In this document: piece by piece, positions 12,912 through 64,000 of the stretch
Layout of the letters: each line of letters begins with the position of its first letter
How positions within the stretch are numbered: position 1 is the stretch's first letter
Assembly: GCF_032911445.1 (NCBI RefSeq)
Contig: NZ_JAWJEJ010000001.1
Span: 3,100,001 to 3,164,000, forward strand
Length of the DNA: 64,000 nt
Source: Sphingomonas sp. HF-S4
Lineage (GTDB): Bacteria > Pseudomonadota > Alphaproteobacteria > Sphingomonadales > Sphingomonadaceae
Direction of reading: 5' to 3'
Position numbers and translations under genes: made by a program
Notes under the pieces: generated by a model
Told to the model about the DNA's origin: nothing
Seen by the model: the letters and a program-made list of their open reading frames with translations, nothing else
The model's database searches: none

Positions 12912-12926
12912 GAACATAGTTAGAAC
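12912..12926 (+). promoter_or_regulatory. LexA box (SOS operator) upstream of radical SAM repair gene
   Basis: The sequence GAAC-ATAGTTA-GAAC is an exact match to the direct-repeat LexA site of alphaproteobacteria (GAAC-N7-GAAC, equivalently GTTC-N7-GTTC). It ends 2 bp before the ATG of the radical SAM gene, so bound LexA would block transcription and ribosome access. A second box with the same core and similar flanks occurs at 63847-63861. Confidence 0.85.
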
Positions 12927-12928
12927 AT

Positions 12929-14179
12929 ATGGCTCAGCTCGATCTCCGCGCGAAATTGGCGATTTTGGCCGACGCCGCCAAATATGATGCTTCCTGCTCG
13001 TCGTCGGGATCGGTCAAGCGCACCTCCACCGGCGGCAAGGGCATGGGCTCGACCGATGGCGGGATGGGCATCTGTCACGCCTATGCGCCCGACGGTCGCT
13101 GCATCAGCCTGCTCAAGATCCTGCTGACCAACAGCTGCATCTTCGACTGCCACTACTGCATCAACCGCAAGAGCTCGAATGTTCGCCGCGCGCGCTTCAC
13201 CCCCGAGGAAGTCGTCAAGCTGACACTCAATTTCTACAAGCGCAATTATATCGAAGGGCTGTTCCTCTCCTCCGGCATCATCCGATCGTCGAACTATACG
13301 ATGGAGCAGATCGTCCGCGTCGCGCAGCTGCTGCGCGAGGAGCATGATTTTCGCGGCTATATCCATTTGAAGACGATCCCCGACGCCGATCCCGAGCTGG
13401 TCCACCAGGCCGGGCTCTACGCCGATCGCGTGTCGATCAATGTCGAGCTGCCCACTGTGGCGGGGCTCACTCGGCTGGCACCCGAAAAGTCGGCGACACG
13501 GATCGAAGGCGCGATGCGCGACGTGCGCGGTGCGATCGACGATACCGGCGATGCGAAGAAGCGATTCAAATCGGCGCCCAAATTCGCCCCCGCCGGCCAA
13601 TCGACCCAGATGATCGTCGGCGCCGACGCCGCGACCGACGGCGACATCATCACCCGCGCCGCCGGGCTCTACGACCGTTTCGCGCTGCGCCGCGTCTATT
13701 ACTCGGCGTTTAGCCCGATCCCCGATGCGAGCGCAGTGCTCCCGCTCCAGCGCCCGCCGCTGATGCGCGAACATCGGCTTTACCAGTCCGACTGGCTGAT
13801 GCGCTTCTACGACTATCAGCCGTGCGAAGTCGCCGACGCGGCCGATGCCGCGACGGGCATGCTGCCGCTCGACATCGATCCCAAGCTCGCCTGGGCACTC
13901 AAGTTTCGCGACCGCTTCCCCGTCGACGTCAACCGCGCCCCGCGCGAGGCGTTGCTCCGCGTCCCCGGGCTCGGGGTAAAGGCGGTCGATGCGATCCTCG
14001 CCGCGCGCCGCTGGCGCCGGCTGCACCTCGCCGATATCGCGCGGCTGACCGCGTCGATCAAAAAGGTCCGTCCGTTCCTCGTTGCCGAGGACTGGCGGCC
14101 GGTAGCATTGTCCGACCGCGCCGATTTGCGCACGCTCGTCGCCCCCAAGCGCGAACAGCTCGAGCTGTTCGCGGCGTGA
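12929..14179 (+). CDS. Putative DNA modification/repair radical SAM protein
   Basis: The 416-aa protein has the radical SAM cluster motif in SCIFDCHYCINRKSS (C-x3-C-x2-C), which would bind a 4Fe-4S cluster and S-adenosylmethionine. At the C-terminus a helix-hairpin-helix segment (VNRAPREALLRVPGLGVKAV) suggests DNA binding. This is the family often encoded beside UdgX-type uracil-DNA glycosylases; its chemistry is unknown. Here UdgX lies 3.8 kb downstream on the same strand with unrelated genes between. The LexA box at 12912-12926 points to induction by DNA damage. Confidence 0.9.
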   Translation: MAQLDLRAKLAILADAAKYDASCSSSGSVKRTSTGGKGMGSTDGGMGICHAYAPDGRCISLLKILLTNSCIFDCHYCINRKSSNVRRARFTPEEVVKLTLNFYKRNYIEGLFLSSGIIRSSNYTMEQIVRVAQLLREEHDFRGYIHLKTIPDADPELVHQAGLYADRVSINVELPTVAGLTRLAPEKSATRIEGAMRDVRGAIDDTGDAKKRFKSAPKFAPAGQSTQMIVGADAATDGDIITRAAGLYDRFALRRVYYSAFSPIPDASAVLPLQRPPLMREHRLYQSDWLMRFYDYQPCEVADAADAATGMLPLDIDPKLAWALKFRDRFPVDVNRAPREALLRVPGLGVKAVDAILAARRWRRLHLADIARLTASIKKVRPFLVAEDWRPVALSDRADLRTLVAPKREQLELFAA

Positions 14180-62901: not shown

Positions 62902-63306
62902 TCACCAAGGCAGTTCCTCGATAAACCGGATCATCTCCTGGAAGCCGCCGGGCTCGAATATCACCCCGTCATCGCTCTCGCTGAGGGGAAAGCGCGAGGC
63001 CGCCTCGATCACGGCTTCTGCATCGGACTGGCGGTGGGGATCGTGGGCGGCCGTCCACCTGGCGAGCGCCACGATACGGGCATGCAGCGCAGCCGCGGCG
63101 TCATTCTCGGCGGAAGCCTCCTCTGCGGCGAACGCCTGAAGCGCCAGTGCCTGGGCTACCGGCTTGTCATGGAAATCACCGCGGAGCAACGCCAAGCGCT
63201 CCAGCGCGCCTTGAAGCTGCGCAGCACTGATCGTCACGGCGTTGAGGCGCGCCATCGGGCTAGCGATCAGCATGACCGTAGCGATCTGCGCTTGAAACGG
63301 GATCAT
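62902..63306 (-). CDS. Unknown protein in the SOS-controlled SRAP operon
   Basis: I do not recognise this 134-aa protein. It is mostly helical, Ala/Glu-rich, with no cysteine, signal peptide or membrane helix; the C-terminal GVIFEPGGFQEMIRFIEELPW looks structured. Its ATG lies 10 bp after the stop of the degenerate SRAP gene, so they should be cotranscribed from the promoter with the LexA box at 63847-63861. A DNA-damage-related role is an inference from that context only. Confidence 0.6.
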   Translation of the reverse strand: MIPFQAQIATVMLIASPMARLNAVTISAAQLQGALERLALLRGDFHDKPVAQALALQAFAAEEASAENDAAAALHARIVALARWTAAHDPHRQSDAEAVIEAASRFPLSESDDGVIFEPGGFQEMIRFIEELPW

Positions 63307-63316
63307 GCCGGATCCT

Positions 63317-63841
63317 TCAGAATGCCAGCTCTGCCTGCCGGAGCTCAGGCTGACGCGGGGGGATCTCCTCGATCGCGAAGCTGCGCGAAGGCAGCGCCAC
63401 GAGCAGCTCTTCCTGGGGTACGGTAAGGTCGAGCCACGCCATGTTCTGGCGACGCAGCAGCACCGCGCCCTGCCGCTCCTGGTAGAAGAACACGTCCGGA
63501 TTGGCCTCGATCGTGACGATCGCGAAGCTCGTCGGCCGGTCGCCTACCGGCGGCTGCCACATGCCGGCGAGATAGAAGAAGTTGCCGTCCTCGAGCGTGA
63601 CGCGGAACCGCCGGTCGCCATTCTTGATCTGGAACTCGCTCGCGGGGACCAGACAACGATGGGTCCGGAACTGCTTGCCCTCGGCGCGGAGGAACTTGAA
63701 CGGCTTGGCTGCGTCGTCGCCCAGCTGCATGCCCCACGCCGCCTCGATCATCTCGACCGCTTGCATGTTATCCGGGTTGCGCCGGATGATGGCGCGACGG
63801 GTGCCGAGAGGCGCTTCCGACTCGAAGGGACTCGCTTTCAT
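63317..63841 (-). CDS. SRAP (SOS response-associated peptidase) family paralogue, degenerate
   Basis: A 174-aa protein with the SRAP core: TRRAIIRRNPDN, THRCLVPASEFQI (the catalytic Glu of the EFY/W motif is kept) and FAIVTIEANPDV. It lacks the N-terminal MCN whose Cys2 forms the thiazolidine crosslink to abasic DNA. The catalytic His region reads YQERQGAVLL where HDRMP is normal. It may still bind DNA but should not crosslink. The start at 63841 lies 6 bp from a LexA box; divergent from the canonical SRAP gene. Confidence 0.8.
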   Translation of the reverse strand: MKASPFESEAPLGTRRAIIRRNPDNMQAVEMIEAAWGMQLGDDAAKPFKFLRAEGKQFRTHRCLVPASEFQIKNGDRRFRVTLEDGNFFYLAGMWQPPVGDRPTSFAIVTIEANPDVFFYQERQGAVLLRRQNMAWLDLTVPQEELLVALPSRSFAIEEIPPRQPELRQAELAF

Positions 63842-63846
63842 GGTGA

Positions 63847-63861
63847 GAACATAATGCGAAC
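63847..63861. promoter_or_regulatory. LexA box between divergent SRAP genes
   Basis: GAAC-ATAATGC-GAAC, an exact GAAC-N7-GAAC match to the alphaproteobacterial SOS operator. It lies 5 bp from the minus-strand SRAP paralogue start and 29 bp from the plus-strand SRAP start (63891), so one LexA dimer could control both directions. Confidence 0.85.
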
Positions 63862-63890
63862 AATCGCGCGGTGCAAATCGGAGGACGTGG

Positions 63891-64000
63891 ATGTGCAATG
63901 ACTACCGGCTGGAGGTCGATATCGCCTCGATCATGGAGGACTTCGACGACCTCGAGATCAAGATTGACCTCCCCGAGGGCACACCTAACGTCGCGGCGCG
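63891..64000 (+). CDS. SRAP (SOS response-associated peptidase, YedK/HMCES family), 3' truncated
   Basis: Only the first 36 codons are inside the window. The protein starts MCNDYRLEVDIASIMEDFDD, and after removal of Met the exposed Cys2 is the residue that traps abasic sites in single-stranded DNA as a thiazolidine crosslink. A GGAGG site lies 7-8 bp before the ATG, and the LexA box at 63847-63861 is upstream. The C-terminal active-site Glu and His are outside the window. Confidence 0.85.
   Translation, partial: MCNDYRLEVDIASIMEDFDDLEIKIDLPEGTPNVAA

Follow-up and report, generated by a model that had tools for sequence, protein, structure and literature searches.

A SRAP paralogue without crosslinking residues shares an SOS box with an active SRAP gene in Sphingomonas and may serve translesion synthesis

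What would a bacterium gain from a SRAP protein that lacks its catalytic residues and stands, behind a common SOS box, back to back with an active one? How bacteria choose between a protein crosslink at an abasic (AP) site and mutagenic bypass is, to our knowledge, still an open question. The locus studied here lies at the right-hand end of the window, by which we mean the whole analysed stretch of 64,000 nucleotides from Sphingomonas sp. HF-S4. The comparative genomics of this live/dead SRAP locus is strong; its biochemical role is something that we infer. The answer we favour, at about even confidence and from sequence comparison, is that the dead paralogue acts as an SOS-controlled, non-covalent guard or adaptor that would serve translesion synthesis within a two-way SOS switch.

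On the plus strand, an active MCNDY-type SRAP gene of 202 aa (PF02586, E 2.5e-21) occupies 63891..64000 of the window and runs on to about 64499 outside it (L005:4892-5500 in the extended stretch). On the minus strand lies a SRAP paralogue of 174 aa, also a PF02586 match (63317..63841, ATG at 63841), which we call the dead SRAP. It is followed 10 bp later, on the same strand, by a small ORF of 134 aa that ends in EELPW (62902..63306). A single SOS (LexA) box of the pattern GAACN7GAAC, GAACATAATGCGAAC on the plus strand, is located at 63847..63861 between the two divergent SRAP genes and is common to both. Except in annotated plasmids, genes were called by ORF and profile. Our analysis confirmed the divergent layout, the single box and the 10-bp gap as an earlier note on this DNA had described them.

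Elsewhere in this genome, at C1:523.4-525.0 kb and adjoining dnaE2, the entire locus occurs once more in diverged form. The box of this second copy is identical in sequence to that of the window, and the two copies share 79% identity in the active SRAP, 65% in the dead SRAP and 51% in the small ORF. Both cassettes hold additional genes. An island lies just beyond the right end of the window (L005:5940-9753, C1 ~3164939-3168752), where a SIR2-like gene (PF13289, with a weak PADLOC SIR2 match), a DUF4062 gene and one further gene without a match separate DUF1810 from imuA; placed within a mutagenesis operon, the island may be anti-phage. In the second cassette, an unmatched ORF with its own SOS box at the start sits between imuB and dnaE2 (L006:10400-10897).

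The dead SRAP scores 45.1 bits against PF02586 (cut-off 27.1), has a predicted SRAP fold and resembles the YedK/HMCES family in fold, sequence and SOS neighbourhoods, but it lacks the residues on which the chemistry depends. According to passages of PMC9436759, Glu105 of YedK is the residue most needed, followed by His160; mutation of either slows crosslinking, Cys2 is required for the crosslink, and Asn75 matters little. In the dead SRAP of the window these positions are held by Ile72 (Glu105), Gln121 (His160), Lys2 (Cys2) and Phe50 (Asn75). Among 92 dead sequences, many of them close relatives, Cys2 and the catalytic Glu were never found, Asn was kept in 1 and His in 6; two loci with a broken dead gene (L053 and L072) had been dropped from this set. 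The active partners, in contrast, retain Cys, Asn and His in 90 of 90 and Glu in 89, and that of the window carries Cys2, Asn75, Glu97 and His152. This second set left out two genes whose start our script did not find, one with a start that reads GTG-TGC (L060) and one split over two frames (L068).

The earlier note had rightly seen the loss of Cys2 and of the catalytic His, but it also held that the catalytic Glu was kept, and this part did not stand. In the profile alignment the Phe of the SEF motif in the dead protein is matched to the Phe of GFYEF in the active protein, which puts the position of the catalytic Glu two residues further on. The supposedly retained Glu precedes this Phe; this Glu69 is a different residue, conserved in 90/92. 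Without Cys2, Asn, Glu and mostly His, the dead SRAP should form no thiazolidine crosslink. It is worth adding that several dead SRAPs (L145, L147, L148, L193-L195 and L197) are annotated with "protein-DNA covalent cross-linking", a term at odds with a family devoid of Cys2 and of the catalytic Glu.

Other parts of the protein are preserved almost without exception, namely the Arg of NxR (91/92), the Arg of HxR (92/92) and a Trp-Gly pair (92/92). We mapped the NxR Arg onto R86 of 1zn6, which is named as a predicted DNA contact in PMC3765255. Because both arginines are kept, one of them at a predicted DNA contact, the conserved residues suggest that the dead SRAP still binds single-stranded DNA. 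Its N-terminus is shorter than that of YedK, to which it aligns from YedK residue 12 on, and the absent stretch may contribute to DNA binding.

In the window as a whole, the number of boxes carries little weight: 3 were found against a mean of 1.36, and at least 3 occurred in 15 of 100 shuffles, which is not significant alone. The meaning of the box comes instead from its position, before the dead gene as well as before lexA and recA. In this genome the motif occurs 13 nt upstream of the lexA start and about 80 nt upstream of the recA start (as chosen by us), and a further box lies 20 nt upstream of imuA in the cassette of the window. Genome-wide, GTTCN7GTTC was counted 114 times, compared with 59 for a reversed-pattern control. 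Another exact SOS box, at 12912-12926 of the window, is found just upstream of a plus-strand gene (12929-14179) whose product looks like a radical-SAM DNA repair protein.

A box no more than 80 nt upstream of the dead SRAP gene was present in all 80 fetched loci, which places a LexA box in the promoter region of this gene. We measured the spacing in 80 genes, that is, in 78 fetched loci (L053 and L072 being dropped as broken) and the two loci of this genome. From the end of the box to the start codon there are 5 nt in 54 genes, including that of the window, 6 in 18, 7 in 3, 8 in 4 and 11 in 1, and the last seven box bases read TATGTTC in every one of them. At 16-18 nt upstream, the hexamer closest to TTGACA agrees with it at 4/6 positions in 70 genes and at 3/6 in 10, figures that stand without a background count; a consensus scan returned no sigma-70-type promoter above its cut-off. 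The conserved spacing and the weak -35-like hexamer suggest a leaderless promoter in which the box would cover the -10 element.

The 80 loci were drawn from 168 relatives found in genomes with a dead-SRAP profile; they are related to each other, and counts among them are not independent. An active-type SRAP lies on the opposite strand in all 80, once at a distance of 1,295 bp from the dead gene (L051). The earlier note had named joint occurrence of the three genes in other genomes as a check: the SRAP pair and its box do so in 80/80 loci, while the small ORF proved to be optional (13/80). At least one of imuA, imuB and dnaE2 is present in 65/80, which puts these loci in a mutasome neighbourhood, and absent from the fetched stretch in 15/80. 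On the active side and strand, imuA was found in 49/80 and DUF1810 in 46/80. SRAP neighbourhoods of the SOS type, including ImuA-ImuB-DnaE2 and DinB, are described by Aravind et al. 2013 (PMC3765255).

As a control for the pairing, we searched 397 Sphingomonadaceae genomes with the active protein. Matches were obtained in 74 genomes at 81 places, of which 70 were examined, the others being the 10 weakest and the copy in the window itself. Within stretches of 2-3 kb, a divergent dead SRAP lies beside 27/35 SRAPs of the MCNDY type (7 of these 35 genes were read with GTG or another start) and beside 0/35 of those with other start types. Eight of the 35 MCNDY SRAPs have no dead neighbour, one of them at a contig end (L215). 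The distribution is patchy, with a dead SRAP in 7/196 genomes of the order; class-wide, the dead profile at E 1e-6 matched 123/385 genomes, mostly through ordinary SRAPs, and strongly in 3/385. Given the unpaired MCNDY SRAPs and the rarity of strong matches, the dead-SRAP module is dispensable.

Dead SRAPs are also carried by plasmids, with matches in 94 of 72,556 records, among them pSymA of Sinorhizobium meliloti 1021. We opened 11 of the 94 loci, chosen for their spread over genera. Every one of the 11 has an uninterrupted dead SRAP frame (with an unsure start in L193). Beside it, 8 loci have an intact active SRAP and 1 a fragmented one; the remaining 2 have none. The box is present in 10 and missing from L193. 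In some rhizobia the dead gene has thus survived the loss or breakdown of its active neighbour, and regulation of the adjacent active SRAP is therefore probably not its sole role. In 6/11 loci dinB adjoins the dead SRAP, whole in 5. In the pSymA locus (L144:6489-7590) it lies in three pieces in different frames and looks broken; L192 and L194 have intact relatives of it.

Is the dead SRAP, then, a functional gene at all? In a tree of 97 rows, the 33 dead rows form one clade with support of 98/89, or 100/99 when ungrouped rows are set aside. The clade spans sphingomonads and rhizobia and shows near-invariant residues. A protein of 152 aa with the motif CLILANEF also groups with it, at 99/92 and on a long branch; this dead-looking SRAP is overlapped by a co-directional MCNQ SRAP in L014 (G080) and L021 (G167). 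An open frame of 164-179 aa is preserved in 78/80 loci, the exceptions being a frameshifted copy (L053) and one cut at its N-terminal end (L072); in addition, one stop interrupts the match in G171. For dN/dS we chose 37 SRAP loci out of 82 and 13 small-ORF genes, excluded L053 and L072 as broken, and used only pairs with dS of 0.1-1.2. The medians were 0.35 for the dead SRAP (450 pairs), 0.21 for the active SRAP (522 pairs) and 0.32 for the small ORF (23 pairs).

The occasional broken copies and the faster evolution of the dead protein are what a functionless, decaying duplicate would show. However, a single clade that extends from sphingomonads to rhizobia, its near-invariant residues, dN/dS values well below 1 and an almost always open frame speak against decay, which we regard as very improbable. 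The frameshifts in relatives by which the earlier note would have recognised decay are few, and we rejected the pseudogene reading on the data on selection, clade and conservation. By these measures the dead SRAP is a conserved gene under purifying selection and not a decaying copy. One might still suppose that the old pocket has gained a different enzymatic activity, for instance through Glu69 and Gln121, both of which are strongly conserved (Gln121 in 82/92). Gln121 is nevertheless replaced in 10/92, by His in 6, Cys2 is absent, and passages of PMC9436759 report severely reduced lyase activity for YedK without Cys2 and Glu105 function, so a new activity seems improbable as well.

Two rivals to the guard reading stand out: the dead SRAP may work directly against its active partner, or it may be no more than a scaffold. 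As a dedicated antagonist, the dead SRAP would set the level of crosslinking by forming heteromers with the divergent active SRAP or by competing with it for AP sites. Such a role would explain why it pairs only with MCNDY-type SRAPs (27/35 against 0/35) and why it shares one box with an active gene that stands opposite in all loci; it fits less well with the 3/11 plasmid loci in which the dead gene is open and its active neighbour missing or broken, although those strains may carry an active copy elsewhere. We consider it a minority possibility. A comparable, rather low probability goes to the idea that the dead SRAP serves the mutasome as a scaffold for other proteins, much as ImuB and ImuA are inactive relatives of a Y-family polymerase and of RecA, and that it has lost its own DNA binding. 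The frequent presence of imuA-imuB-dnaE2 or dinB nearby agrees with this, as does the naming of SRAP-like proteins as putative PolY-binding regulatory subunits in passages of PMC12926913. A pure scaffold, however, would not obviously need the NxR and HxR arginines that practically all dead SRAPs keep.

The small ORF had been put forward in the earlier note as a protein of no known family and a new SOS gene, and both statements gained ground. At the E-values asked, it has no match in Pfam, NCBIfam, PHROGs or PADLOC; its own family comprises 37 homologues at E 0.001. It follows the dead SRAP in 13/80 loci and is broken in two of these (frameshifted in L027, short in L030), so it is dispensable. 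An AlkB-like gene lies near on the same strand in 25/80 loci, 3 of which also have the small ORF (PF13532 was checked in two examples). A different small protein fills the slot in 3/80, 2 of them with AlkB, and none of these genes is present in 44/80.

A wider profile of the small ORF hit 9/397 genomes, of which 7 were accepted; the candidates in G173 and G487 were rejected as frames without the C-terminal end. The gene follows a dead SRAP in G000 (twice) and G047, forms a dead SRAP-small ORF-alkB series in G416 (seen outside this set in G185 as well), and precedes alkB without an adjacent dead SRAP in G412, G468, G361 and G485. A box is located near its start in G412, G361 and G485, with none in the fetched stretch of G468, and in L065 a member lies between imuB and dnaE2. 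In two of these loci (L188 of G485 and L189 of G361), DUF1810 and small ORF-alkB diverge from a common SOS box, with no SRAP match within the 3.2 kb fetched. A family without a database match that recurs after dead SRAPs, before alkB and between imuB and dnaE2 supports the idea of a new SOS gene family. A phage origin was dismissed, only one distant phage match having been found (27% identity, E 1e-9).

The C-terminus of the family is [DE][DE][LI]P[WF] in 43/46 aligned members; distant ones end in MPF, LPF or LPW. The SSB of this genome ends in DDLDDDVPF, and the tail of E. coli SSB is DDDIPF, the likeness being an acidic-hydrophobic-Pro-aromatic end. Among the 8,059 distinct frames of at least 80 codons in the 80 loci, 22 end in [LIVM]P[FW], and 15 of these stand directly after a dead SRAP: 12 from the EELPW family (one a fragment) and 3 from a DIPW family. 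The others are 2 EELPW relatives elsewhere (L050, L065) and 5 unrelated frames. One frame in this survey (L067) has no early ATG.

Unlike SSB, the small ORF has no SSB domain (no Pfam match), and what precedes its end is a helix, where SSB has a long disordered linker. Its AF2 model (pLDDT 87) shows a confident helix at 119-130 and then a looser end; comparison of the fold with solved structures gave no convincing match. Mimicry of the SSB tail is a reasonable guess but nothing firmer; the protein would presumably dock on SSB partners through this end. A possible beta-clamp motif, FQEMILF, was dropped, as five distant members replace its Gln (by Thr, Ala, Gly, Val and Gly); unlike this Gln, the Pro-aromatic end is kept in distant members.

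The second family of small proteins found after the dead SRAP (L057:2764-3075, L071:9533-9793 and L073:9535-9858) ends in DIPW or EIPW and has no Pfam match. An hhalign probability of 0.5% gave us no detectable homology to the EELPW family, and the common end therefore looks convergent. One may tentatively go further, to a paired live/dead module whose dead subunit would hold AP-site single strands reversibly and pass them on to translesion polymerases. Small proteins of no common origin, EELPW and DIPW, would then have entered the slot after the dead gene on two or more occasions, converging on an SSB-like end by which SSB partners are drawn to the damaged strand or excluded from it. We hold this extended version to be doubtful.

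The guard reading itself can be set out as follows. Upon presumed SOS induction, LexA cleavage would free the one box and switch on both directions. Rightward, this would yield the active SRAP, a covalent trap for AP sites, often leading into DUF1810 and imuA-imuB-dnaE2; leftward, the dead SRAP, sometimes followed by the small tail-bearing protein, AlkB or both. With its SRAP arginines the dead SRAP would most likely grip single-stranded DNA, AP sites included, without crosslinking. Crosslinks made by the active SRAP would block bypass, and in PMC9436759 HMCES is described as inhibiting mutagenic translesion synthesis. The dead SRAP may instead cover damaged single strands reversibly, as a lid or an adaptor, and so leave them accessible to DnaE2-ImuB and DinB, and the small protein may bring in SSB partners through its end. 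The common box and the presence of DnaE2, ImuB or DinB in the loci fit such a reversible guard.

Known systems offer parallels. ImuB and ImuA are likewise paralogues without catalytic activity that SOS mutagenesis loci retain (passages of PMC3765255, PMC6511836 and PMC12926913), but the dead SRAP differs from them in fold and parent enzyme, and its link to the mutasome is known here from gene neighbourhood. The SRAP-like proteins suggested as translesion polymerase partners in PMC12926913 go with UmuC-like PolY without DnaE2; the available passages of that source do not state whether they belong to the same clade or are dead. The polymerase-subunit proposal made there also fits the role of the dead SRAP. 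In titles and abstract openings we found no description of a catalytically dead bacterial SRAP paralogue, though one may exist.

An SOS-controlled dead SRAP beside an active one and error-prone polymerases would make the choice between crosslink and bypass accessible to genetics, and its occurrence on pSymA puts it in a tractable organism, S. meliloti 1021. For several dead SRAPs, database annotation as a crosslinker is contradicted by the sequence. The small ORF would bring a new gene family into the SOS response. In some Sphingomonas and rhizobia relatives, the dead SRAP and the small protein that at times follows it look like conserved components of error-prone repair, and not like genes in decay.
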